Shown: in pieces, positions 915 through 55,495 of the stretch
Numbering within the stretch: position 1 is the stretch's first letter
Layout of the letters: each line of letters opens with the position of its first letter
Source of the DNA: Thermoproteota archaeon
GTDB taxonomy: Archaea > Korarchaeota > Korarchaeia > Korarchaeales > Korarchaeaceae
Direction of reading: 5' to 3'
Assembly (NCBI GenBank): GCA_027491435.1
Contig: JAOZFG010000035.1
Coordinates: 94,393-158,392, forward strand
DNA: 64,000 nucleotides
Program-made: the position numbers and the translations under genes
The notes under the pieces: generated by a model
What the model saw: only the letters and a program-made list of their open reading frames with translations
The model's database searches: none
What the model was told of the DNA's origin: nothing

Positions 915-1502
915 ATGAGGAGGGCCCCTCTCGCCTATCGCTTGGTTTACGCTGTCGAGTACAGGGAAGTTTACAGGCCACTCCTGAAGTTCATAGAGAG
1001 GGATGGCGGAAGCGTAGTCGTTGACGTCGGAGGAGGTTACGGGATAGCCAGCGAAATGATAGCTGAACACGTAGATAAGCTGATAATGGTAGAGATAGAG
1101 CCTGAGATGGCCGTAAAGGCTAGAGATAGGTTGTCCAAGTTCGGACACGTCAGCGTGGTCGTGGCCGACGCCTGCCACCTGCCCCTCAGGGATAAGGTGG
1201 TTGACACGGTCTTCTTCTTCGACTCGTTACATCACATAAGGGAGTCCGAGTGCGCCTTAAGAGAGGCGGCCAGGGTTCTCAAGCCCCTGGGTAAGCTGGC
1301 CATATTTGACTTTGATGGGAGCAGGCTCATGACCAAGCTGTTGAGCCTTGTGGAGAAGGCCTTCGGGCTCTGGTCTAGCTTCTATCCCAAGGGAAAGCTC
1401 ATTTCCATGCTTGAAGGGATGAACTTCTCCATAGACTACGTAGAGGAGGGTAAGCTCGGGGAGCTTAACCTAGTGGCCACTAAACTTCCTCAGCGTCGTT
1501 GA
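915..1502 (+). CDS. Class I SAM-dependent methyltransferase
   Basis: A 195-residue Rossmann-fold methyltransferase of the Methyltransf_11 type. Motif I is VVVDVGGGYGIAS (about residues 35-47), followed by the acidic strand-2 end VEIEPEM and the DACHLPLRDKVVDTVFFFDSLHH segment typical of motifs II-III. The substrate cannot be told from sequence; small-molecule or lipid methylation is as likely as anything. It starts 8 bases after the nicotinamidase stop and could be co-transcribed with it. Its 3' end overlaps the convergent small membrane protein gene by 23 bases. Confidence 0.82.
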   Translation: MRRAPLAYRLVYAVEYREVYRPLLKFIERDGGSVVVDVGGGYGIASEMIAEHVDKLIMVEIEPEMAVKARDRLSKFGHVSVVVADACHLPLRDKVVDTVFFFDSLHHIRESECALREAARVLKPLGKLAIFDFDGSRLMTKLLSLVEKAFGLWSSFYPKGKLISMLEGMNFSIDYVEEGKLGELNLVATKLPQRR

Positions 1503-1740
1503 GGGTCATCGGTTTTGACCTCTCCTCCTCTGACCTCTTTTTCAGCAGGTAAACCAGGCCTAACACGAACTTAGCTATTACCGCCGTTATTCCCAGTAAA
1601 TAGAGTGCCAGGGCTATTATCCCTATGATTAACAGCAACAGGACGGCTAAGAGCGCCCATACCCTCCATATAATGGGGAAGAGTATTATCAGGAGAGCTA
1701 CTGTTATAGCTGCCAGAATTAAGGCTACTGCAGTCCTCAT
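1480..1740 (-). CDS. Small integral membrane protein
   Basis: An 86-residue protein made almost entirely of hydrophobic stretches, with two to three predicted transmembrane helices across residues 3-65, followed by a charged tail (KKRSEEERSK) likely in the cytoplasm. I do not recognise a family. It lies one base downstream of the AIM24-type gene on the same strand and is almost certainly translated from the same message, so it may help anchor or assist that protein; this is inference from position only. Confidence 0.6.
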   Translation of the reverse strand: MRTAVALILAAITVALLIILFPIIWRVWALLAVLLLLIIGIIALALYLLGITAVIAKFVLGLVYLLKKRSEEERSKPMTLNDAEEV

Positions 1741-1741
1741 G

Positions 1742-2422
1742 TTAACTCCTCTTGGGGAGGAAGGGCACTATAGCCGCAGCTAGCGCTGGGAGGCTCATGC
1801 TCTGCAGTATAACCCTACCGGGCCCCGTCAACTTGGCCAGGAAGAGCCCTTCTCCTCCAAATAACATTGTTTTTAGGCCGCCTGCCCTCTCGACCTCGTA
1901 CTCCACTGTAGACTCGAAGGCCACGATGTGCCCGGTGTCTACCCTGAGCACCTGCCCGGGCTTCAGGTTGTACTTAATGAAGTCCCCCGCTCCAGTTATC
2001 CACATGGTTCCCACTCCCGTAGCTTTCTGAAGGATGAACCCCTCTCCCCCGAAGAAGCCCGCGCTTAGCCTCCTGGTCAGCGTGGTTGACACGTCTACCC
2101 CCTCTTCAGCCGCCAAGAATGCGCCCCTCTCCAGAATATAGTCAGTGGAACCGTCAAGCTCCAGGGCCATTATCTTCCCAGGATAGCTTCCCGAGAAGGC
2201 CACTATTCCAGGCCCGCCCACGGCCTCATACTCCACTAGGAAGAAAGTCTCCCCGGAGATGACCCTGCTCAGGCCCTTCAATATACCCCCTCTGGCCTTA
2301 GCTTCCATCCTGACGTTGCCAGACATGTGATTTAGCGCTCCGGCCTGAGAGTATATTCTCTCCCCAGGGTTTATCTCAATGATAACCATCTGGAGGTTGT
2401 CCCCTACTATCTTATACCTCAT
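1742..2422 (-). CDS. AIM24/TIGR00266 family protein
   Basis: A 226-residue all-beta protein. Several G-rich repeats are visible (ERIYSQAGALNHMSG near the N-terminus, LSAGFFGGEGFILQKATG mid-protein, MLFGGEGLFLAKLTG near the end), which are the hallmark of the AIM24/DUF124 family. Family members are widespread in archaea and bacteria, and the biochemical role is not settled. There is no signal peptide; the C-terminus has a short hydrophobic stretch. The ORF track begins at a GTG two codons upstream, but ATG 2422 has a GGGAG ribosome site at good spacing. It is cotranscribed with the small membrane protein downstream. Confidence 0.8.
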   Translation of the reverse strand: MRYKIVGDNLQMVIIEINPGERIYSQAGALNHMSGNVRMEAKARGGILKGLSRVISGETFFLVEYEAVGGPGIVAFSGSYPGKIMALELDGSTDYILERGAFLAAEEGVDVSTTLTRRLSAGFFGGEGFILQKATGVGTMWITGAGDFIKYNLKPGQVLRVDTGHIVAFESTVEYEVERAGGLKTMLFGGEGLFLAKLTGPGRVILQSMSLPALAAAIVPFLPKRS

Positions 2423-2450
2423 AAGCACTCCCTCTAAAAAAGAAGGGTCA

Positions 2451-3488
2451 CTATATGTAACCCTTAGCCCTCATCAACTCGGCCAGCAGGATAGCTTGAC
2501 CCGCCGCTCCCCTGACCGTGTTATGGCCTAGAGTTAGTAGGAGCAGGGAGTCCTTAGAGCTGCCCTTGCGAACCCTCCCCACGGTCACTGACATGCCCTC
2601 GCCAGCCCACCTGTCGTACCTGGGCTGGGGCCTGTTGGGCTCCTCCCTGACTACTATCGGCCTCTCAGGAGCCGTGGGCAGGCCCATCCTCTGGGGCTCA
2701 CTTACGTAGTTCGATAAAGCTCTCTTAGCCTCATCTACGTCAACCTCCTCGTCGAACTCTAGGTGAAGGGCCACAAGATGTCCATCTAGCACGGGAACCC
2801 TGACACAAGTTGCTTGTACCTGAAAGTTAGCCATTTCCACAGTCTCTCCATTAAATTTGCCCAAGAGCTTCCTGCTCTCCCTTACCAGCTTCTCCTCCTC
2901 TGAGGGTATGTAGGGGATGAGGTTGTCCACTATGTCGTAGGACGGCACCCCCGGATAACCGGCTCCAGAGAGGGCCTGGTAGCTACAGACATTAACTTTC
3001 CTGACGCGATACTTGTCGTGGAGGGGCTTCATTGGAAGCACAGCCATTGTAGTCGTGCAGTTTGGATCCGTGGCCGCGGGCCCCAGCCCCTCGGCCCTCT
3101 GAACCTCAATCAAGGCCAGGTGGTCTGGGTTCACATCTGGTATGATTAGGGGGACCAGGGGTTCCATCCTGAGGGCGCTGGCGTTGCTTACCAAAGGTAT
3201 GTTAGCTTTCATTATCTCTGGCTCTATCACCTTGGCCTCCGAGGAGGGGAGGGCCGAGAATATGAGGTCTACGCCCTTAAGCGAGGACAGGTCCGTGGGC
3301 TGGACCTCTATCTCAGCCACGTCCTCCGGCAAGGGAGATTCAATCCTCCAGTTGACCGCCTCCCCGTACTTCTTACCGACGCTTGCCTTGCCCGTCAACA
3401 CTGAGATCTCAAACCAGGGGTGCTTGTGGAGCATCTGAACGAACCTCTGGCCTACGGCCCCTGTAGCCCCTAACACGGCTACCTTCAT
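2451..3488 (-). CDS. asd: Aspartate-semialdehyde dehydrogenase
   Basis: Catalyses NADPH-dependent reduction of aspartyl phosphate to aspartate semialdehyde, the shared step towards threonine, methionine and lysine. The N-terminal Rossmann motif GATGAVGQRF is clear. The catalytic Cys sits in DPNCTTT (Cys144), and a conserved His occurs in VLDGHLVALH. Length 345 and the SSEAKVIEPEIM segment place it in the archaeal/fungal ASADH branch, which also includes malonyl-CoA reductases of Sulfolobales. Pairing with aspartate kinase 9 bases upstream favours the amino-acid role. Cytoplasmic. Confidence 0.92.
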   Translation of the reverse strand: MKVAVLGATGAVGQRFVQMLHKHPWFEISVLTGKASVGKKYGEAVNWRIESPLPEDVAEIEVQPTDLSSLKGVDLIFSALPSSEAKVIEPEIMKANIPLVSNASALRMEPLVPLIIPDVNPDHLALIEVQRAEGLGPAATDPNCTTTMAVLPMKPLHDKYRVRKVNVCSYQALSGAGYPGVPSYDIVDNLIPYIPSEEEKLVRESRKLLGKFNGETVEMANFQVQATCVRVPVLDGHLVALHLEFDEEVDVDEAKRALSNYVSEPQRMGLPTAPERPIVVREEPNRPQPRYDRWAGEGMSVTVGRVRKGSSKDSLLLLTLGHNTVRGAAGQAILLAELMRAKGYI

Positions 3489-9016: not shown

Positions 9017-10044
9017 CGGTCAATAAGGTTTTACTCCCCGAGTTCCTCAAGTCCAAGCCCAACCTGAAGTTCCTGTTCACCGGAGGAAAGGGCGGAGTTG
9101 GCAAGACGGTATCGGCTGCTGGCTTGGCCTACAGGTTCTCCCAAGAGGGGAAGAGAACCTTGCTCGTCTCCTTAAACCCAGTCCACTCGTTGAGTAGCCT
9201 CTTCGCACAAGACCTTAAGGGAGGCGTCATAAAGCCCGTTGAAGGTGCTGAGAACCTCTTCGCCCTTGAGGTGGAGATAGACGACATAGTGGAGAAGTAC
9301 AAGAAGAACATAGCTAGGAGGCTCTCGGAGTTCCTGAAGTGGGCGGACATACCCCTTGACCCTAAGCCGTTCATAGACATAGCCACCACTAACCCGGCGT
9401 TCCAGGAGTCGGCCATGTTCGACAAGATGATGGACGTGGTCCTAGAGCAGGGAGAGGAGTTCGACGTGGTGGTCTTCGACACCGCGGCCGTAGCTAACGC
9501 GGCTAGGCTAATAGGTTTGAGTAAGATATATGGGCTCTGGCTTGAAAGGATGATAAAGAGCAGGGAAGAGGCTCTATCGCTCAGAGTTAAGCTGTCCTTC
9601 AGGAAGGAAAAGGTGATGGAGGAGATAAAGAAGGACCCGCTAATGGCAGATCTCATATCAATGCAGGAGAGGTTTAACAAGGTCAAGCAGATCCTGTTAA
9701 ACGAGGAGAAGACTGCTTTCTTCTTCGTGACGCTCCCCCTGGCCCTGCCCATAGCGGTGGTGAAGAGGTTCATAAAGATGGTAAGAGGGTTCGACATACC
9801 GGTGGGCGGCGTGATAGTCAACCAGATCATACCCAAGAAGGTAGCAGAGGCCACCACCAACGAGTACTTGAAGAACAAGTACAGGGAGCAGCTGGAGTAC
9901 ATGAGGATAATAGAGAGCGATTTAGGCGAGCTCGTTAGGTCCTACATACCTACTTACCCTGGGGAAGTTGTAGGGCTCGATATGCTGGCCAGGCTATCAG
10001 AAGACATGTTCACGTGGGTTCCTGACTTTCTAGATGAGCTTTAA
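9007..10044 (+). CDS. ArsA/Get3-family ATPase paralogue with altered switch motifs
   Basis: A 345-residue paralogue of the preceding gene. Walker A is intact (GGKGGVGKT, residues 26-34), but switch I reads SLNPVHSLSSLF with Asn57 where the family has the catalytic Asp, and switch II reads DTAAVANAAR, losing the Gly-His of the TGH motif. A helical insertion of about 60 residues precedes the KTAFFFVTLP strand. The expected outcome is nucleotide binding with weak or no hydrolysis, so it may be the regulatory half of a heterodimer with its neighbour. The 10-base overlap indicates coupled translation. It overlaps the convergent FdhD gene by 35 bases. Confidence 0.85.
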   Translation: MVVTVNKVLLPEFLKSKPNLKFLFTGGKGGVGKTVSAAGLAYRFSQEGKRTLLVSLNPVHSLSSLFAQDLKGGVIKPVEGAENLFALEVEIDDIVEKYKKNIARRLSEFLKWADIPLDPKPFIDIATTNPAFQESAMFDKMMDVVLEQGEEFDVVVFDTAAVANAARLIGLSKIYGLWLERMIKSREEALSLRVKLSFRKEKVMEEIKKDPLMADLISMQERFNKVKQILLNEEKTAFFFVTLPLALPIAVVKRFIKMVRGFDIPVGGVIVNQIIPKKVAEATTNEYLKNKYREQLEYMRIIESDLGELVRSYIPTYPGEVVGLDMLARLSEDMFTWVPDFLDEL

Positions 10045-10741
10045 CGGGCTTAACCCTCACCCTTTCTTCTCCTGAGTAGACGAGCATCCTGTTTCCCCTG
10101 GCAAATCCTACCAGAGTGATATTGTAAAGCTTGCCCAGTCTGGCCGCCTGAGCTGTGACAGCTGCCTTACTGGCTGCGAACCCAACTGAGCCCTTCCTCA
10201 ATATACCAACTATCCCTCTGGTTATCCTGCAGGAGAGGGCTAGGAAGTGCTCTTCTGGGTTGTACTCCTTAAGGTACATTCTCCCTAAAATTTTGTAGAG
10301 GAGGGTGTGCCTGCTAACGTCCTCCATCACCTCCTTGACCTGACCAGACTTATCGAATATTCCCATTACGTGCGTGGCCCCAGTAACCTTGTGTACTCTA
10401 GAGGAAGCCATCAAGGAGTTCACAGCCTTGAGTATGACTTCAGAATCAAGGATGGGTGCCCTAATAGATCCCCCACTGCCGATCGGCTTGCCCTTGACGT
10501 TGATCAGGTAGGCGTCATCACCCTTTAGAACGCTGACCCTGCTAAGCTCCTCAAGGGAGTACCCATGATAGATAAGCATTCCCGCCACTAGATCCACTAC
10601 ATCCGTTGGTGAGCCGTAGATAGTAATGGAGCTTCCTCCAATTCTGAAGGTAAAAGTTACCTCATTTGCTAGAATGTCTTCTAATTCTCTAGAGGAGCCG
10701 TCAACTACCTCTATCACCTTTACCTTGGACGTAGGCTCCAA
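10010..10741 (-). CDS. FdhD-family protein lacking the sulfurtransferase cysteines
   Basis: FdhD passes sulfur from a cysteine desulfurase to the molybdenum/tungsten cofactor of formate dehydrogenases. The family core is clear: GATHVMGIF, VMEDVSRHTLLYKILGR (cf. EDVGRH), and ITLVGFARGNRMLVYS at the end. The CxxC loop found in E. coli FdhD (TGCGVCG) aligns with IGSGGSI here, so both cysteines are replaced by serine. A lone Cys occurs in LSCRITRG. No formate dehydrogenase is in the window. The role may be cofactor binding rather than sulfur relay. Its start overlaps the upstream membrane protein gene by 41 bases. Confidence 0.78.
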   Translation of the reverse strand: MEPTSKVKVIEVVDGSSRELEDILANEVTFTFRIGGSSITIYGSPTDVVDLVAGMLIYHGYSLEELSRVSVLKGDDAYLINVKGKPIGSGGSIRAPILDSEVILKAVNSLMASSRVHKVTGATHVMGIFDKSGQVKEVMEDVSRHTLLYKILGRMYLKEYNPEEHFLALSCRITRGIVGILRKGSVGFAASKAAVTAQAARLGKLYNITLVGFARGNRMLVYSGEERVRVKPVKAHLESQEPT

Positions 10742-11324
10742 CTAAATCACCCGCCTTCAGAAGGGCCCCTCCCAACACTAGCATAAGCTCTCCTCTCAAG
10801 AGTATTCCTTCTTCTCCCTTGCTCCTTATCGTCCCCAGGAGCAACCCGTAGATCAGGCCGCTGAGCCACAATTTAAGGGAGAGGTCTGATACCGTGACCC
10901 TGAGGAGGGAGGCGCTAACGTTGAGGAGAATTTGATTGAAAGTTCTCCAAATGATTATGAAAAACATGCTTGGAATTGCTGCTAATAACAGGGATATGGC
11001 AATCACTTTAATCCTCCTTAGAAGCTTCAGGTCGTGCACTGAGTATACGATCCTTGACCCCAGGTCGGATCCGCTTTTGAAGGCCAAGAACACGAACAGG
11101 GTGAACAAGGAGGGGGGCTTCACCGCTATCAAGGCGAGCAGGCCCACCAATATCCAGGAGAGAGTGTATATCAAATCTATTGCGTTTCTCTTAGCTAGCT
11201 TAGATCTTGTGACCTTAGCCACTGCCTTGCTAACCAACGACTGAATCAGGTAAGCCAGGGTGGGCAAGAAGTCCATCAAGCCCATTATCACAACTAGTAG
11301 GAAGAAAAGTACGTCAGCTAACAT
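10701..11324 (-). CDS. Polytopic membrane protein, unknown function
   Basis: A 207-residue protein with about six hydrophobic segments (for example FFLLVVIMGLMDFLPTLAY, LSWILVGLLALIAV, VIAISLLLAAIPSMFFIII and LWLSGLIYGLLLG), separated by short basic loops. No family is recognised and no catalytic motif stands out. It lies directly upstream of the FdhD homologue with an unusually long 41-base overlap, so the FdhD start may really lie a little downstream. Divergent from the small helical protein gene that starts 50 bases away. Confidence 0.55.
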   Translation of the reverse strand: MLADVLFFLLVVIMGLMDFLPTLAYLIQSLVSKAVAKVTRSKLAKRNAIDLIYTLSWILVGLLALIAVKPPSLFTLFVFLAFKSGSDLGSRIVYSVHDLKLLRRIKVIAISLLLAAIPSMFFIIIWRTFNQILLNVSASLLRVTVSDLSLKLWLSGLIYGLLLGTIRSKGEEGILLRGELMLVLGGALLKAGDLVGAYVQGKGDRGS

Positions 11325-43371: not shown

Positions 43372-44556
43372 TTACATAAGGCCCTTCAAAGTAGTGTCCC
43401 AGTAAATGTAATAGTACATCCTGTAGAGCCTCCACCCTAGCCTGCTTGGCTGGAACGGGCTGAGGGGTACTCCGTACTTCCAAACGGCCAGTGAGGCCGT
43501 TCCCCTGGAGGCTGCAGTTGGCGCGGAGCCTACGTAAGGGCATCCCATGTGTCCCCTGTAGTATACCTTCTGCTCTATTCCCTCCAACTCCCTAGCTAAG
43601 TTCTCCCCGACCACGAAGGCCTGGAAGTGGGCAGTTACACCCATCTTCAATATCTCCTTAGAGCCAGCGTCGCCGGCCACGTAGACGTCATCGTAGTTCC
43701 CGGCCGGACCCCTGTACTGCAGGGTCTTTTTGTCGTTGGGCACCCATCCTTCCTCATCGGCTATGCTGAGGCCCCTGAGGGATCCTACGTGAGGTGGGAC
43801 TGTTATCAGCAGGTCGTATGAGTACTCATCCCCGTTCTTACCCACTACAACCTTCCTCTCCGGATCTACGTGGTCGTACTTGAATTCCCTAACGTCGTTG
43901 ACTCCCCTTTCCTTGAGGTTAGCGGTTATGTTGGAGTTGTAAGCTGGAGGCCCTATGTTGGGTAGGGGCCATAGCAAGGTGATGTCGAACTTATCCCTCT
44001 CCTTATAGGCCCTAAGATAGTCATCCAGCATGACCGTAAACTTGCTGGGGGCCCCCGGACAGGCTATGGGCATCTTGGGGACGAAGACTACTATCTTACC
44101 CTCTTTCATGGCGTTTATCTTCCTTCCCAGTGCCTTGGCATCCTCTAGGGACGTATAGAAGGTATTGAGGTCCTTCTCTAGGCCAGGAACTGCCTTCACG
44201 TCGAAGGAGGCTCCGGTGGCTATGACCAGGTAATCGTAGGTGAAGGCCTTCCCCCCTCTTACCTTAACCTTTCTATCGGCCAGATCCACGTCCACTACCT
44301 GGAAGTCAGGCCCCAGATAGGTCTTGAGCCTGGGGCTCAGGTAGTATCTCCTATGCCTTGTTAAGTCGTCGTCTGCAAAGTAGCCAAAAGGGACAAAGGT
44401 GAATCCTGCTTGATTATGAGCTATTTCATTTTTATCTAGAACGGTGATAGTAAGTTCACCTTTCGCTATTTTCCTCCTGAACTCCCTAGCTAGTTTATTT
44501 GCGACCATAGCCCCTACCGCTCCGGCTCCTAGGATCAATACGTCTTTATGAGGCAT
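43372..44556 (-). CDS. Sulfide:quinone oxidoreductase-type flavoprotein
   Basis: 394 residues of the FAD/NAD(P)-disulfide oxidoreductase fold. VLILGAGAVGAMVANKL binds FAD, YLVIATGASFD and DDVYVAGDAGS are the usual second and third FAD motifs. Cys166 (MPIACPGAP) and a C-terminal Cys in GHMGCPYVGSAP are placed like the SQR catalytic pair, and the C-terminus ends with amphipathic aromatic helices that could dip into the membrane. It likely moves electrons from sulfide to quinone. ATG 44556 has AGGGG upstream; the track's 48-residue N-terminal extension is AT-rich non-coding sequence. Paired with DUF1641. Confidence 0.8.
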   Translation of the reverse strand: MPHKDVLILGAGAVGAMVANKLAREFRRKIAKGELTITVLDKNEIAHNQAGFTFVPFGYFADDDLTRHRRYYLSPRLKTYLGPDFQVVDVDLADRKVKVRGGKAFTYDYLVIATGASFDVKAVPGLEKDLNTFYTSLEDAKALGRKINAMKEGKIVVFVPKMPIACPGAPSKFTVMLDDYLRAYKERDKFDITLLWPLPNIGPPAYNSNITANLKERGVNDVREFKYDHVDPERKVVVGKNGDEYSYDLLITVPPHVGSLRGLSIADEEGWVPNDKKTLQYRGPAGNYDDVYVAGDAGSKEILKMGVTAHFQAFVVGENLARELEGIEQKVYYRGHMGCPYVGSAPTAASRGTASLAVWKYGVPLSPFQPSRLGWRLYRMYYYIYWDTTLKGLM

Positions 44557-44807
44557 AATAACCCCTGAGCCGGGCCTTAGCGTAAAAATTAAAAAGATAG
44601 TCATTGAATAATGATAATTAAACAATAGATAATTACATATCGTTTTAATCATATTTCTGTTATCATGATTATCTTCATTGAATATCCATTCGATAGTCAA
44701 ATAGACCTCACTTTATGTCTCAACTTTACCACCGGTTCGTTACTACTGTTATAACATTATGTTCAAGTGTATATTAATATTAATATTTATGTATATATTT
44801 AACAAAT
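44557..44807. other. AT-rich intergenic region upstream of the flavoprotein gene
   Basis: About 250 bases, very AT-rich (for example TATTAATATTAATATTTATG). It likely holds the flavoprotein promoter. No gene seen; the ORF-track extension of the flavoprotein through here is not credible. Confidence 0.5.
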
Positions 44808-49736: not shown

Positions 49737-51725
49737 ATGCAGCTGATGATGGCAAAACCTGCTAAACCCTCGAGGCTGCTCCTGTTATCTATTGTCTCCA
49801 TATTGCTGCTGGCAGCTTCCGCCTCGGCTTTACAGGTAATAGCTTCGGGTGGAGGCAAAACCCCCTTTGGAGATCTCGATGCTATAAAGGCTTCAGCTGA
49901 TGAGGCGCTAAGCAAGGCCAGCCCCGAAACTAAGGCATGTCTCGAATGTCACGCCAACCCTAACGTAGTAAAGATGCAGGCCCATTACTATGACTGGCTT
50001 AGAAGCAAACACGCTTGGTCCACTCCGCCTGAACTTAACGATTACTACAGGGAGATATTCGGAGAGGAAGCTAACTTAGCCCCTAAGTTTGCCAACTATC
50101 AGTACAACGTGGGTTGCTACGAGTGTCATGGTATGTTCGCTGACCCAGATAGGCCAGACGTTATAGACCACCACGGGTATAAGATAGTGGTCGACGTCAC
50201 CCCCAAAGATTGCCAGCAGTGCCACTACAAAGAAACTAAGGAGATGAGCTGGTCTAAGCACGCTTTCGCTGCACTTAACGCCAACTTAAAGCCCTGGTAC
50301 ACTCTAGTTCTTCAGAAGACTTATGGGGATGAAGCTAAAGCTGAGTACGACAAGTTGTACAAGGAGGTTGTGGAGTGGCCTTTCTACAAGAAGTACGCTA
50401 AGGCTTTCTACCAGGGAGATCCCAAGGCTGTCAACGCCAGCAAATACTACTTCTACGGGGACAAGTTCAAGTTCGTGTCAACTCTATACCCATCCCATGG
50501 GATGCTCACCCACGAAGCTGGGGGCAACTTAACCGCCAACTACCTGGGAGTCGACTACCACTTCATAATGGAACACCCGAAGTACAACAACAGCTATGTC
50601 TACCTGGCTTGTATGGAATGCCATGGAAGCGCCGTACTGCCTGCAAAGCCCAACGCAATAGTGGGAGTTGACGCCCCCTACGCTAAAGTTGACGGAACTC
50701 CCGAGATGGTACTACTTGGGTGGCCTAACAACGGGGCCGGCAGGGTGAACCCAGACGGTAGTTTGGGAAGCTGTGCCACCTGCCATACCAGGCACACCTT
50801 CAGCATAGAAGAGGCCAGGAAGCCACACACTTGTGGTCAATGTCACTTGGGATATGACCACCCGCAAATAGAGATATACGAGGAGAGCAAGCATGGAAAC
50901 ATATACGACTCCGAGGGAGAGAACTGGAACTGGGAGAACCTGCCGTGGAGGCCTGGCATAGACTTCAGAGCCCCGACCTGTGCTACTTGTCACATGAGCC
51001 ACTTAGTGGATGAAAACGGCAAGGTGATCGTTGAGGGGACCCATGACTTAGGAGCTAGGCTGACTTGGGAGATTCAGGCCAAGTGGAGCTTCGGTCAGTC
51101 GTACTACCCTGACCCGCTGAACAACAAGTTCGCTAAGAAGAGGCCCGACTGGAAGAACCCGTTAGAGCTGGGTAACGCTGCCTTATCATCCCCCGACAAC
51201 CCGAGGGGGAGGATGATGAGCGTCTGCAAGTCGTGTCACGCCAGCGACTGGGTGTACAGTTACTTCACCTGGTATGACAGCGTGAATACAGACTACAACA
51301 TAACTTGGGAGTACACCAGAGCCCTACTCAAGAAGGCCTATGAGAAGGGAATACAGGTGGATAGGAAAGGTCAGACGATAATGGGCAGGAAGGCTCTAGG
51401 AGATGACACCGACGAGTACATGGAGATAATGTACTATTACATATGGCACCATGAGGGCAGGAGGTGGAGGATGGGCGCTTCAATGATGGGACCAGACTAC
51501 ACGCACTGGCTCGGTATAGTTGACACCGTCATGGATAAGCTCGGCAGGATGACCGCTTACTACGAGACTCAGCTCAAGATAAAGCAACTTGAGGCCAAGA
51601 TATCTTCAAGCGCCAAGTCCCCAGTGACCCAGGGAGTCAACATGTTCAACTTCCTGGCGGTTGGTCTAGCAATAATAGCCATACTCCTCGTCTTGGCTGA
51701 CATCCTAATCAGGAGGAGGAAATAA
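49737..51725 (+). CDS. Octaheme c-type cytochrome of the hydroxylamine oxidoreductase (HAO) family, membrane anchored
   Basis: 662 residues with an N-terminal signal peptide (LLLLSIVSILLLAASASA) and a C-terminal helix (FLAVGLAIIAILLVLADIL) followed by RRRK, so the haem domain faces outside and is held to the membrane. Eight CxxCH motifs occur: CLECH, CYECH, CQQCH, CMECH, CATCH, CGQCH, CATCH, CKSCH. The spacing, the GTHDLGARLTWEIQA segment and the C-terminal HHEGRRWRMGASMMGPDYTHW block are HAO-like. The Tyr in PDYTHW may match the HAO tyrosine that crosslinks the active haem; this needs alignment. Hydroxylamine oxidation, nitrite reduction and sulfur-oxyanion chemistry all remain possible. The Ccm genes follow. 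Confidence 0.88.
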   Translation: MQLMMAKPAKPSRLLLLSIVSILLLAASASALQVIASGGGKTPFGDLDAIKASADEALSKASPETKACLECHANPNVVKMQAHYYDWLRSKHAWSTPPELNDYYREIFGEEANLAPKFANYQYNVGCYECHGMFADPDRPDVIDHHGYKIVVDVTPKDCQQCHYKETKEMSWSKHAFAALNANLKPWYTLVLQKTYGDEAKAEYDKLYKEVVEWPFYKKYAKAFYQGDPKAVNASKYYFYGDKFKFVSTLYPSHGMLTHEAGGNLTANYLGVDYHFIMEHPKYNNSYVYLACMECHGSAVLPAKPNAIVGVDAPYAKVDGTPEMVLLGWPNNGAGRVNPDGSLGSCATCHTRHTFSIEEARKPHTCGQCHLGYDHPQIEIYEESKHGNIYDSEGENWNWENLPWRPGIDFRAPTCATCHMSHLVDENGKVIVEGTHDLGARLTWEIQAKWSFGQSYYPDPLNNKFAKKRPDWKNPLELGNAALSSPDNPRGRMMSVCKSCHASDWVYSYFTWYDSVNTDYNITWEYTRALLKKAYEKGIQVDRKGQTIMGRKALGDDTDEYMEIMYYYIWHHEGRRWRMGASMMGPDYTHWLGIVDTVMDKLGRMTAYYETQLKIKQLEAKISSSAKSPVTQGVNMFNFLAVGLAIIAILLVLADILIRRRK

Positions 51726-51790: not shown

Positions 51791-52843
51791 ATGAGAAAAA
51801 TTCTCTTGGGCCTGCTGGGCCTCCTTTACCTAGCTGACGCTATCCTGCTGTTCTATTCAACGACATCCGGCCCCTTTCCCTCTGTAGTTCCCCTAGGAAC
51901 TCCCACAGCATATAGGAACATATATGTTCACGTACCAATATCCATCTCAACCTACCTGGCGTTTACCCTCGGCTTCTTGGGCGCCCTAGCCTACCTGACT
52001 AAGGGACAAGACAAGTTCGAGAGGTTGGCCCATGTTTCCATAATCTCCGGCATAATATTGGGGGCCTCGACCCTAGTTACTGGGATGATATGGGCGAGGG
52101 AGTCCTGGGGAGCTGCTTGGAACTGGGACCCTAGGGAGACGGGCATACTCTTCATGTGGCTGGCCTTCTTAGTCTACTTAGCTATAAGATCCAGTGTGAC
52201 AGACCCTGACGTCAGGCCGAAGATATCGATGGCCTTCGCCGTAGCTGCTTACTCTACCATACCCCTGAGCTTCGTTATACCTTATGTGATGCCCAGCCTC
52301 CACCCAACTGCACCTCAAACCAGCATGTTCCTCAAGAGCGGCCTGACGAAGGCGCTCTTTTCGGCTAGAATGGCGGTTGTTAACCTAGGCGTGTTAGCCC
52401 TGATAGTTCTGGCTTGGAGGAAGAAGGTTGAGAAGGTCAGGTACCTAGCCATCCCCCTCCTGACAGCGTCACTAGCTGTCTTGGCCCTACAGCTCCCAGC
52501 GAATCTGGCCAGTAGTAGCCCCTCATCTGGAGAATTCAAAGCGGTGGTGATGGAGGGGAACTACAACGGATCCTTCCACCTTAAGGTGTTGGCAGGGGGG
52601 AAGGTTTACGAGTTGATTTACGACGGGGAGCCCCCAGTCAAGCCAGTAAAGGTGGAGTTTCAGGGGAAGGAGTTTCTGACCTTGGAGAAACACTGGGTGC
52701 TGGTGAAAGGGGTCGTTAGAGACTCCCTAATAGAGGCCAGCTCACTGAAGCTCATCAATTACTGGGGTGTTTCAATTAACGCACTTATATATGCTCTAAC
52801 GGTCCTTTCCCTCTTGGTGATGGCAGAGAGGGAGGGCTCATGA
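51791..52843 (+). CDS. ccmC: CcmC/CcsA-type haem-handling membrane protein with extra exported domain
   Basis: 350 residues. The tryptophan-rich haem motif is WGAAWNWDPRETG, with flanking histidines in NIYVHVPIS and SLHPTAP, as in CcmC, which presents haem to CcmE. CcmC is normally about 240 residues with six helices; this one adds about 90 residues outside the membrane (GSFHLKVLAGGKVYELIYDG...) that look like a small beta domain, plus a seventh helix. The extra domain could replace a missing partner. The start of ccmE lies inside its final codons (4-base overlap). Confidence 0.82.
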   Translation: MRKILLGLLGLLYLADAILLFYSTTSGPFPSVVPLGTPTAYRNIYVHVPISISTYLAFTLGFLGALAYLTKGQDKFERLAHVSIISGIILGASTLVTGMIWARESWGAAWNWDPRETGILFMWLAFLVYLAIRSSVTDPDVRPKISMAFAVAAYSTIPLSFVIPYVMPSLHPTAPQTSMFLKSGLTKALFSARMAVVNLGVLALIVLAWRKKVEKVRYLAIPLLTASLAVLALQLPANLASSSPSSGEFKAVVMEGNYNGSFHLKVLAGGKVYELIYDGEPPVKPVKVEFQGKEFLTLEKHWVLVKGVVRDSLIEASSLKLINYWGVSINALIYALTVLSLLVMAEREGS

Positions 52844-53253
52844 AGAAGGGGTTGTACGTCGCCGCGGGCATACTCGTTATGATGGTCCTCATAGGCTACC
52901 TGGCGATCACCTCCAGCTCCTACGTTGACGTGAGCGAGCTCAAATCCTACAGAGATGGGTCAGTTGTGGCCGTGAAGGGAAGGGTTGCCGATACCAAGCT
53001 TAATCCGGAAAACGACCTGGTGATCTTCGTGCTGGAGGGCGAGGATGGCTCCCAGCTCTACGCAACCTACAGCCTGTCAAAGTTCATAAGCCAGTATGGG
53101 GCCCCTCCGGGGCATAGCACTGTGGAGCAGAACGTGGTCATGAAGGGGGTGTATCACCCTAGGCCTCAGGGGAGGGTGCTAGGTTACATGGACATCCAGG
53201 AGATACTGCAAGGTTGTCACAAGGCCTACGAGGCCCCTCCGGCTACGGGATGA
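52840..53253 (+). CDS. ccmE: CcmE haem chaperone, CxxxY type
   Basis: 137 residues: one N-terminal membrane anchor (GLYVAAGILVMMVLIGYLAI) and an outside OB-fold beta barrel (VVAVKGRVADTKLNPENDLVIFVLEG, NVVMKGVYHP). In the Escherichia type, haem attaches to a His in HxxxY; here the position reads CHKAY (C-x-x-x-Y), the variant described for archaea and some sulfate reducers. CcmE carries haem from CcmC to the ligation machinery. Overlaps ccmC and ccmA by 4 bases each. Confidence 0.8.
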   Translation: MKKGLYVAAGILVMMVLIGYLAITSSSYVDVSELKSYRDGSVVAVKGRVADTKLNPENDLVIFVLEGEDGSQLYATYSLSKFISQYGAPPGHSTVEQNVVMKGVYHPRPQGRVLGYMDIQEILQGCHKAYEAPPATG

Positions 53254-53888
53254 GCATGCTCTCTTACAAGGGCGTCTGGAAAAGGTACTCTCAAGACTAC
53301 GTGCTCAAGGACGTCAACTTGGTGTTAGGGGAGGGGGAAGCGGTGCTGGTGATGGGCCCTAATGGTTCGGGGAAGACCACCCTGCTGAAGTTAGGGGTGG
53401 GGTTGATTAGGCCTTCTAGGGGAGAAGTGAAGGTAGGGGAGATCGACGTCAGATCTCCCGAGGCTAAGAGGTTTCTTGGATATTTGCCCCACTCCCCTCC
53501 CCTTTATTTGGACCTAACGGTCAGAGAGAACCTTAAGTACTACGCAGGCCTTCATGAGATGGAAGATCTACCTGAGCACGTTTTAGAGGCTCTAAAGGGC
53601 TTTGGCCTGGACAGGTTCCTCGATAGAAAGGTAAGAGAGCTTAGCTATGGCTGGAGGAGAAGGGTAGATGTTCTGAGGGCCATAATAGGGCTTCCTAGAG
53701 TGCTCCTAATGGACGAGCCTTTCTCAGGTCTGGACTTGAACGGTAGGAACTTCATGGTATCTTTAATGGAGGGACTAAAGTCGGAAGGTACCTCCATGAT
53801 TTTCACAACTCCCTACGGGGAGGTGCCTGCAAAGGCCGACAGGGTGTTGGAGATAAGGGGAGGTAACCTCGTTGAGCTTAAAGGTTAG
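53250..53888 (+). CDS. ccmA: CcmA, ATP-binding subunit of the haem-release ABC transporter
   Basis: 212 residues. Walker A GPNGSGKTT, signature LSYGWRRRVDVLRA (the LSYG-x-RRRV style common in CcmA), Walker B VLLMDEPFSGLD. It drives release of holo-CcmE with CcmB. ATG 53250 overlaps the ccmE stop as ATGA; the track's GTG at 53214 would add 12 residues encoded within ccmE. The switch-loop His is replaced (TTPYGE), which may indicate a modified ATPase cycle. Confidence 0.85.
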   Translation: MSMLSYKGVWKRYSQDYVLKDVNLVLGEGEAVLVMGPNGSGKTTLLKLGVGLIRPSRGEVKVGEIDVRSPEAKRFLGYLPHSPPLYLDLTVRENLKYYAGLHEMEDLPEHVLEALKGFGLDRFLDRKVRELSYGWRRRVDVLRAIIGLPRVLLMDEPFSGLDLNGRNFMVSLMEGLKSEGTSMIFTTPYGEVPAKADRVLEIRGGNLVELKG

Positions 53889-54510
53889 GAGGATCATCTG
53901 GAAGGACCTATTAGTTGAGGTCAGGAACCTACCAGAGCTGGGCAGTGCCGTGGTCTTTTCAGTGGCGTCGTCAAGCCTTCTAGGCTTCTCGGTAAGCAGG
54001 CTTTCCGTGGATCCTCTGCTCATTCTCACCGTCGGCTTGATTATGGTGGAACTCTTCCTGGCCGTCTTCACGTCACTGATGGGCGTGGTAAAGGAAGAGG
54101 AGACGGGAACCCTTGACGGGCTCAGGTCAAGCCCCGTAGATCCATCCACCGTTTTCTTGGCCAAGCTAGCTGTCAACATCATACTCCTGGAAACCCTAAC
54201 CTCCATATCTCTAGTGGCCACCCTCCTCTTCTCAGGAACTGTTGAGGGGTATCACAAGCTCGTTCTCATGATACTCTCTCTGGGAATTTACCTGGCGGCC
54301 ATCTCCTCGTTCTCCTCAGCCCTCTCAATATACCTTCAGGCAAGGGGGGTACTCCTGCCTACCATGATACTAGTGCTCAGCTTGCCGGCCATCCAGGAGG
54401 CCCTAGCTTTCATGCTAAGGGAGGAGCCACTGAGTCCCCTGTTGCTCTCCCTCTCCGGACTTGCCTTCACGGGCATAGCTTCCTGGCTATCAGTTTACGT
54501 ACTAGACTGA
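53872..54510 (+). CDS. ccmB: CcmB, membrane subunit of the haem-release ABC transporter
   Basis: 212 residues with six helices. The cytoplasmic N-terminus IIWKDLLVEVRN and the loop VVKEEETGTLDGLRSSPVDPSTVFLAKL are CcmB hallmarks (EE-x-G-TLD-x-L). TTG 53872 is preceded by GGGGAGGT. It pairs with CcmA, with a 17-base overlap. CcmD, CcmF and CcmH are not found in the window, so ligation factors must lie elsewhere or be replaced. Confidence 0.85.
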   Translation: MSLKVRRIIWKDLLVEVRNLPELGSAVVFSVASSSLLGFSVSRLSVDPLLILTVGLIMVELFLAVFTSLMGVVKEEETGTLDGLRSSPVDPSTVFLAKLAVNIILLETLTSISLVATLLFSGTVEGYHKLVLMILSLGIYLAAISSFSSALSIYLQARGVLLPTMILVLSLPAIQEALAFMLREEPLSPLLLSLSGLAFTGIASWLSVYVLD

Positions 54511-54547: not shown

Positions 54548-55495
54548 ATGAGGGCTAGAATTCCGCTACTTATCATGCTAGCTCTATCCCTAGCGTTAAC
54601 CAGTTCTGTGGGTCAACCGGTCTACTTCCTCGATCTAGAGCCTGGGACCTACCTAGTCTACAACCTAACAGGGGTATATAACGGGATAAAGAGGTATGAG
54701 GTCGTGGGAAAGGCCGAGGTTGATGGTAGGCCGTGTACCCTGGTCAAGTCCTTCCTATTCGTCAAGACAGAGAATAAGCTCTTCCAGCAAGGGGCTTCCC
54801 TCAACTCCACCTTCTGTTACGATGATAAGGGGAGGCCCATCCTAGAGGATGTTTTAGTGCCTGAACAGCTGAACTTCTCAGTCAGGAGGGTTAAAACGAA
54901 GTACTGGTGGCAGGACTGGCAAGTAGCCAAGGCCCAGGTAAGGATAGAGTACAGCGTCAACGGGACAATCATAAAGGAGTACTTGGTGGACGCCAAGAGG
55001 ATGGTCGTGGTTCACGAGGGTAAGGAGTACCCTTTCTCTTGGGAGAACCTAACCTCGGTGCTACCTTATACCCCTAGCGCCCTGATGGAGCCCCACATAG
55101 ACTTGTCCCTAGACTTCAAATTGGGGATGAAGAAGTTCGTGTCCATGGGAGGGGACAATGCCACCCTAGAGGTGGTGGCGATAGACGAGGTACAGACCCC
55201 TGTGGGGACTTTTCTTTGCTACAGGCTAGTGATAAAGGGGTTCGACAGGGGCATCCCCTACGAGTCGACTGTGTTCGTGACTAAGGACAGGCCCAGGATA
55301 ACCGTGTTCTACGTAACCGAGTCGGAAGGCATAAAGCAGTCCGGCTTCCTAATAGATGCAAACCTGAGGAGAGAGGCAAACCTTTACTACGGGGCCTTGG
55401 TAATGCTCGTGGTGCTCGGTTCGATAATTGGTTACAAGTTCGTAGCTGGCTTGAAGAAGGAAAAGGGGGGAAAGAAGAGGGGAGAAGGTGGTTAG
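54548..55495 (+). CDS. Exported, membrane-anchored protein of unknown function linked to the cytochrome cluster
   Basis: 315 residues: signal peptide (LLIMLALSLALTSSVG), a beta-rich outside domain, a C-terminal helix (GALVMLVVLGSIIGYKFVAGL) and a Lys/Gly-rich tail. Three cysteines occur in the outside part (RPCTLVK, STFCYDD, FLCYRLV); no CxxCH. No family recognised. It follows ccmB by 37 bases and completes the run started by the octaheme protein, so it could be a redox partner, a thiol-handling protein or a scaffold. Its stop overlaps livM by 4 bases. Confidence 0.6.
   Translation: MRARIPLLIMLALSLALTSSVGQPVYFLDLEPGTYLVYNLTGVYNGIKRYEVVGKAEVDGRPCTLVKSFLFVKTENKLFQQGASLNSTFCYDDKGRPILEDVLVPEQLNFSVRRVKTKYWWQDWQVAKAQVRIEYSVNGTIIKEYLVDAKRMVVVHEGKEYPFSWENLTSVLPYTPSALMEPHIDLSLDFKLGMKKFVSMGGDNATLEVVAIDEVQTPVGTFLCYRLVIKGFDRGIPYESTVFVTKDRPRITVFYVTESEGIKQSGFLIDANLRREANLYYGALVMLVVLGSIIGYKFVAGLKKEKGGKKRGEGG

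Follow-up and report, generated by a model that had tools for sequence, protein, structure and literature searches.

The octaheme cytochrome c of the archaeon Ignicoccus hospitalis (IhOCC, Igni_0955; PDB 4QO5) reportedly is membrane-associated, lacks the tyrosine cross-link and reduces nitrite and hydroxylamine. For its relative epsilonHao, PMC9213671 cites in vitro reduction of nitrite to ammonium, and a native hydrogenase was reported to reduce Igni_0955 (PMC4429474). Recent work calls it unclear what hao genes do in archaea (PMC13140500). Here we analysed a stretch of 64,000 nucleotides (the window) from an archaeal MAG (1.64 Mb, 99.5% complete; hereafter the host), which encodes an octaheme HAO-family cytochrome c. 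The protein is a member of an archaeal branch, probably of the known reductive kind, and we delimited this branch to vent Desulfurococcales and the host genus.

The octaheme gene and its family

The octaheme gene was located on the plus strand of the window (49737-51725, ATG start, stop codon included) and encodes 662 aa. The protein contains eight CxxCH motifs: CLECH at aa 68 (49938-49952), CYECH at aa 127 (50115-50129), CQQCH at aa 159 (50211-50225), CMECH at aa 292 (50610-50624), CATCH at aa 346 (50772-50786), CGQCH at aa 366 (50832-50846), CATCH at aa 415 (50979-50993) and CKSCH at aa 497 (51225-51239). CMECH, the fourth motif by alignment with Nitrosomonas HAO (NeHAO) and IhOCC, marks the predicted catalytic haem. 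In 2000 shuffles of the same residues the number of CxxCH motifs had a mean of 0.02 and a maximum of 2, and no other ORF of at least 60 aa in the window contained more than one. The hydropathy profile revealed a Sec-type signal-like segment at the N-terminus (aa 1-32, 49737-49832), peaking at aa 14-32 (LLLLSIVSILLLAASASAL), and a single C-terminal transmembrane (TM) segment (aa 640-658, 51654-51710; hydropathy 3.0, model helix 635-661) followed by basic RRRK. Two HAO-like blocks were also recovered, GTHDLGARLTWEIQA starting near aa 434 and GASMMGPDYTHW starting at aa 580; hence the haem motifs, signal peptide, TM helix and blocks listed in the initial annotation were all present. The gene is not an assembly artefact, because orthologues exist in six further species of the host genus (five full-length and one split across two contigs, with 76–83% identity over the main segments).

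Membership of the HAO family, as annotated initially, was borne out by both sequence and fold. The protein matched Pfam PF13447 (E 1.2e-21), and its best PDB match was 4qo5, the I. hospitalis protein (E 9e-65), followed by 6h5l, NeHAO and KsHAO. The AlphaFold2 model, calculated without haems from 45 window and locus sequences (mean pLDDT 80, pTM 0.77), again retrieved 4qo5 first in Foldseek (E 1.2e-24, TM 0.69 by target), then 6h5l, NeHAO, KsHAO and HDH, with rmsd values of 6–9 Å to the known HAOs over long gapped alignments. The eight motifs follow the HAO order. A homotrimer with seven bis-His haems and a five-coordinate haem 4 is predicted, and the candidate His ligands H92, H145, H175, H353 and H386 were conserved in the alignment of relatives.

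A grouping with octaheme tetrathionate reductases (OTR), named in the initial annotation as the outcome that would contradict it, was not recovered: the protein had no match to TIGR04315, no OTR appeared in the Foldseek list, and BLASTP against the host's own OTR gave no meaningful match. ONR and MccA were rejected in the same way, with no sequence match and no entry in the Foldseek list. The host OTR is a second octaheme protein of the TIGR04315 family, encoded on contig C39 (L105:3325-4971, minus strand), with hydrophobic segments at both ends.

Phylogenetic placement and branch architecture

We used only the gross separation from the careful tree of 53 rows, since its reference rows were fragments rebuilt from PDB alignments, with long branches. 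The host genus and Desulfurococcales formed one clade (100/100), and the closest sequences outside the host genus belonged to Pyrodictiaceae and other Desulfurococcales. The next branches were Hydrothermarchaeota with Nitrospirota (90/79) and then the IhOCC group (89/95). An enclosing clade of 49 rows (100/100) included Campylobacterota and gammaproteobacterial epsilonHao-like proteins; NeHAO, KsHAO and 6h5l lay outside it. A quick tree of 85 rows recovered the same query clade, but with the IhOCC group further out. The protein was placed with epsilonHao and apart from cross-linked HAO, on an archaeal branch of its own outside the Campylobacterota epsilonHao, and neither tree grouped it with NeHAO or KsHAO. 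The tree called for at the outset put the query among the Tyr-lacking clades.

Structurally, the branch stands out mainly for a helical insertion before the predicted catalytic haem. It enlarges the segment between haems 3 and 4 (50226-50609), is mostly helical, and comprises helices 185-194, 198-207, 215-225 and 229-235 in the model. The spacing of the two motifs was 133 residues in the query, 132–133 in the genus, 123–160 in Desulfurococcales, 88 in Hydrothermarchaeota and mostly 44–72 elsewhere. The spacing between haems 1 and 2 was 59 in the query, 54–58 in Desulfurococcales and 54–56 in the IhOCC group, against 27–30 in almost every other clade member.

A C-terminal TM segment was found in the host genus, Hydrothermarchaeota, the archaeal homologue at L008 and Desulfurococcales, where it follows a long stalk (none was seen in L016), and in none of the bacterial clade members that were checked. 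Since most of the archaeal homologues found have the anchor and the bacterial ones checked lack it, it fits a role in retaining the protein on a cell with a single membrane. The permanent anchor proposed initially was thus present, but the direct quinone contact read from it fits no better than such retention. The octaheme proteins of the Hydrothermarchaeota loci L017 and L018 end in VCGP-TM-RR(K), which resembles archaeal CGP-CTERM sorting tails rather than a plain anchor. The L008 protein (1324-2754, minus strand), from another archaeon, is a more HAO-proper octaheme cytochrome whose motif reads NPDYMHWYG and in which Asn replaces the catalytic Asp.

Maturation operon, neighbours and redox partners

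The octaheme gene is adjoined by a variant System I maturation operon, also on the plus strand. It encodes a CcmC/CcsA-like haem-handling membrane protein of 350 aa (51791-52843; PF01578 E 3e-24; TIGR01191 ccmC E 2e-15, below cut-off), a CcmE-like protein of 137 aa (52840-53253), a CcmA-like ABC ATPase (53214-53888; PF00005; TIGR01189 E 1e-35, just below cut-off) and a CcmB-like permease (53872-54510; PF03379 E 5e-10, over cut-off). The CcmE-like protein had no Pfam match and was assigned by its position and by a CxxxY motif (C126 to Y130) that was invariant in 6/6 homologues. Further along the operon, relatives encode a thioredoxin-domain protein and CcmF, both of which are encoded on another contig in the host, so that CcmA, CcmB, CcmC, CcmF and a CcmE with CxxxY are all present. 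Directly after ccmB, where relatives have the thioredoxin-domain gene, the window encodes a protein of 315 aa that is hydrophobic at both ends and matches no family (54548-55495, plus strand).

The operon adjoined the octaheme gene in 7/7 gene-bearing species of the host genus. PF01578 was detected in 8 of the 16 genus species, seven of which carry the octaheme gene, and the other 8 species had neither; the 16 species are related, and these counts are not an independent-sample statistic. The eighth species with PF01578 has a split-Soret cytochrome in the octaheme's place: in G002, a split-Soret family dihaem cytochrome (L102:12160-12840, minus strand) heads the Ccm operon. The same cassette was found in the Desulfurococcales locus L015, divergent from the octaheme gene. 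The host also encodes a dihaem cytochrome (L106:4710-5693, minus strand), and the window contains a flavoprotein resembling type III sulfide:quinone reductase about 5 kb upstream of the octaheme gene (43372-44700, minus strand; NF049943 E 4e-72, below cut-off).

In the sister clades, NapA genes adjoin or lie close to the octaheme gene in Hydrothermarchaeota (L018 and L021, with NapG and NapH in L018) and in Nitrospirae (L024). The Desulfurococcales neighbours of the octaheme gene are genes for tetrahaem, DsrO-like FeS, NrfD and monohaem proteins. The Desulfurococcales gene set at L014 resembles a Pyrodictium delaneyi complex that includes the octaheme protein Pyrde_0496 (PMC8105010). Directly downstream of the L018 octaheme gene lies a COX1-superfamily protein (9595-10782, plus strand; PF00115), possibly a nitric oxide reductase. 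A large protein of 727–865 aa follows the octaheme gene at three Desulfurococcales loci (L013:6029-8257, L014:10357-12537 and L015:10153-12747), without a Pfam match in L014 and L015.

No recognisable nitrate reductase was detected in the host genome, and the best scores of its two PF00384 proteins mark these as formate-dehydrogenase-like; the relative G007 encodes a DMSO-reductase type II/NarG-like protein, and the octaheme-bearing G005 and G008 had a single PF00384 match each. NapC/NrfH (PF03264), the type of quinol-oxidising partner expected for epsilonHao, was absent from 16/16 genus species, and NrfD was not found in the host. These three absences argue against a complete ammonification pathway in the host; unless it uses another substrate, the enzyme would depend on nitrite supplied externally. 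The electron donor could be a formate dehydrogenase (contig C36) or a hydrogenase, the latter by analogy with Igni_0955. Co-occurrence with Hcp (hydroxylamine reductase) was rejected as a functional clue: 7/16 species have Hcp, only 2 of these carry the octaheme gene, and the two genes are uncorrelated.

Catalytic pocket, function and known systems

The initial annotation had taken the Tyr of PDYTHW for the residue that cross-links the catalytic haem. This Tyr is Y588, in the block GASMMGPDYTHWLG (aa 580-593, 51474-51515), which also contains M583, H590 and W591. In NeHAO the context of the cross-link is ...AHVNPGGWTY(467)TEGW in chain numbering; Tyr467 aligned with His590 by HMMER (via an archaeal HAO), MAFFT and HHalign (in both directions), and Y588 aligned with Trp465 by all three programs. 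The epsilonHao convention, in the wording quoted in PMC8940962, requires a Trp in place of the Tyr and a Met eight positions upstream, and the query has both, as W591 and M583; His at the key site of reductive enzymes has also been described (PMC12758564). Both conventions place the site elsewhere than at Y588, and no Tyr occupies that position, a result that the initial annotation had itself named as speaking against its proposal. Across 82 relatives from the Tyr-lacking epsilonHao-type clade, position 588 was Y in 66, W in 12 and F in 4, M583 was conserved in 82/82 and W591 in 80/82. Since the Tyr in PDYxHW occurs family-wide in non-cross-linked octaheme cytochromes, it does not serve to diagnose a P460 site, which corrects a tempting residue-level inference, and nothing supports a bond of Y588 to haem 4. 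The pair Asp374-His375 (50856-50861) corresponds to Asp267-His268 of the NeHAO catalytic pocket, with D in 82/82 and H in 80/82 relatives (D-V in IhOCC).

With moderate confidence, we consider the protein a membrane-anchored reductive octaheme cytochrome, similar to epsilonHao and without a Tyr-haem cross-link, that most likely reduces nitrite and/or hydroxylamine. A reductive enzyme is favoured by the missing cross-link Tyr together with the NapA nitrate reductase, tetrahaem quinol-oxidase, DsrO-like FeS, NrfD and monohaem neighbours of the sister clades. The family, clade, haem motifs, Asp-His pair, lack of a Tyr at the cross-link site, anchor and ccm linkage come directly from the computations; the trimer, the haem ligation, the direction of catalysis, the N-oxide substrate and the donor are inferred. 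The signal peptide would export the protein, the adjacent Ccm operon would load its haems, and the one C-terminal helix would keep it on the outside of the cell's only membrane. A membrane or surface donor may then pass electrons to the chain of seven predicted bis-His haems, which would carry them to the predicted five-coordinate haem 4. There Asp374-His375 could help to protonate the bound N-oxide (nitrite and/or hydroxylamine most likely) during its reduction towards ammonium.

We weighed this reading against three others. An oxidative enzyme of the HAO/HDH kind, in which Tyr588 would cross-link haem 4 of the neighbouring subunit to give a P460-like hydroxylamine or hydrazine oxidase, would explain the HAO fold, the retained Asp-His pair and a Tyr only 2–3 residues from the canonical position. 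This P460-like reading of the initial annotation is extremely improbable and was rejected on alignment and tree: Y588 matches a Trp of NeHAO, its position is Y, W or F among Tyr-lacking relatives, the cross-linked enzymes lie outside the query clade, and of the His or Trp reported at the key site of reductive HAOs the query has both. Reduction of a sulfur species (sulfite, thiosulfate, polysulfide or tetrathionate) on the HAO fold seems unlikely. A type III SQR-like gene 5 kb away, an OTR-type octaheme in the same genome, DsrO/DsrP-like subunits among the Desulfurococcales neighbours and a host without a recognisable nitrate reductase would suit it, and other HAO-family proteins, from vent Desulfobacterota, have speculatively been assigned a sulfur role (PMC9213671). 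The same paper, however, states that no role of the HAO family outside the nitrogen cycle had been suggested before, the nearest non-Thermoproteota relatives are linked to NapA, and N-oxide-active HAOs share the catalytic Asp-His pair. We regard it as distinctly improbable that the protein is mainly an electron conduit, for example to extracellular acceptors such as Fe(III) oxides, and not a small-molecule reductase. Its external, membrane-anchored position, the long stalk of the Desulfurococcales homologues and the presence of Pyrde_0496 in both nitrate- and ferrihydrite-grown P. delaneyi (PMC8105010) are compatible with a conduit, but the residues of the catalytic pocket are fully conserved and Pyrde_0496 was compared by gene-set resemblance to L014 alone.

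We also advance, as a tentative and rather doubtful extension of the reductive reading, that the clade of the host genus and Desulfurococcales, with its haem 3-4 insertion and C-terminal anchor, may be a distinct archaeal terminal reductase, which in the host might be fed by a surface donor (formate dehydrogenase or hydrogenase) without NapC/NrfH or NrfD and act on an external N-oxide or a non-nitrogen substrate. In this branch a TM-anchored enzyme is accompanied by a haem-maturation operon of its own, in a host without recognisable nitrate reductase.

Among known systems, IhOCC shares with the query its archaeal origin and a long haem 1-2 loop (56 versus 59 aa), but has Asp-Val instead of Asp-His, Lys for His175 and Met for His92 in the alignment, lacks the haem 3-4 insertion and falls in a separate small clade; the query is thus not a member of the IhOCC subgroup. 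EpsilonHao of Campylobacterota and relatives has the same WHHxGRRxRxGAxMxGxDYxHWxG block, the Trp and Met marks and the Asp-His pair, and likewise no cross-link Tyr. The Campylobacterota genes that we found lie behind a tetrahaem gene, whereas the query has a TM anchor, larger segments between haems 1 and 2 and haems 3 and 4, and no NapC/NrfH partner in its genus. The Kuenenia Kustc0457/0458 complex (PDB 6H5L), named as reducing, has the HAO fold and no cross-link Tyr, but is distant, lies outside the clade and has His where the query has Met583. Nitrosomonas HAO (1FGJ/4FAS) has eight haems in the same order, the Asp267-His268 pair and the same fold, but differs in Tyr467 (His590 or Trp591 in the query) and in His459 (Met583). 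Finally, the hao genes of Pyrodictiaceae (PMC13140500) and the HAO cluster of Kletzin 2015 (PMC4429474), archaeal entries given as annotation only, belong to the same broad archaeal family as the protein described here.
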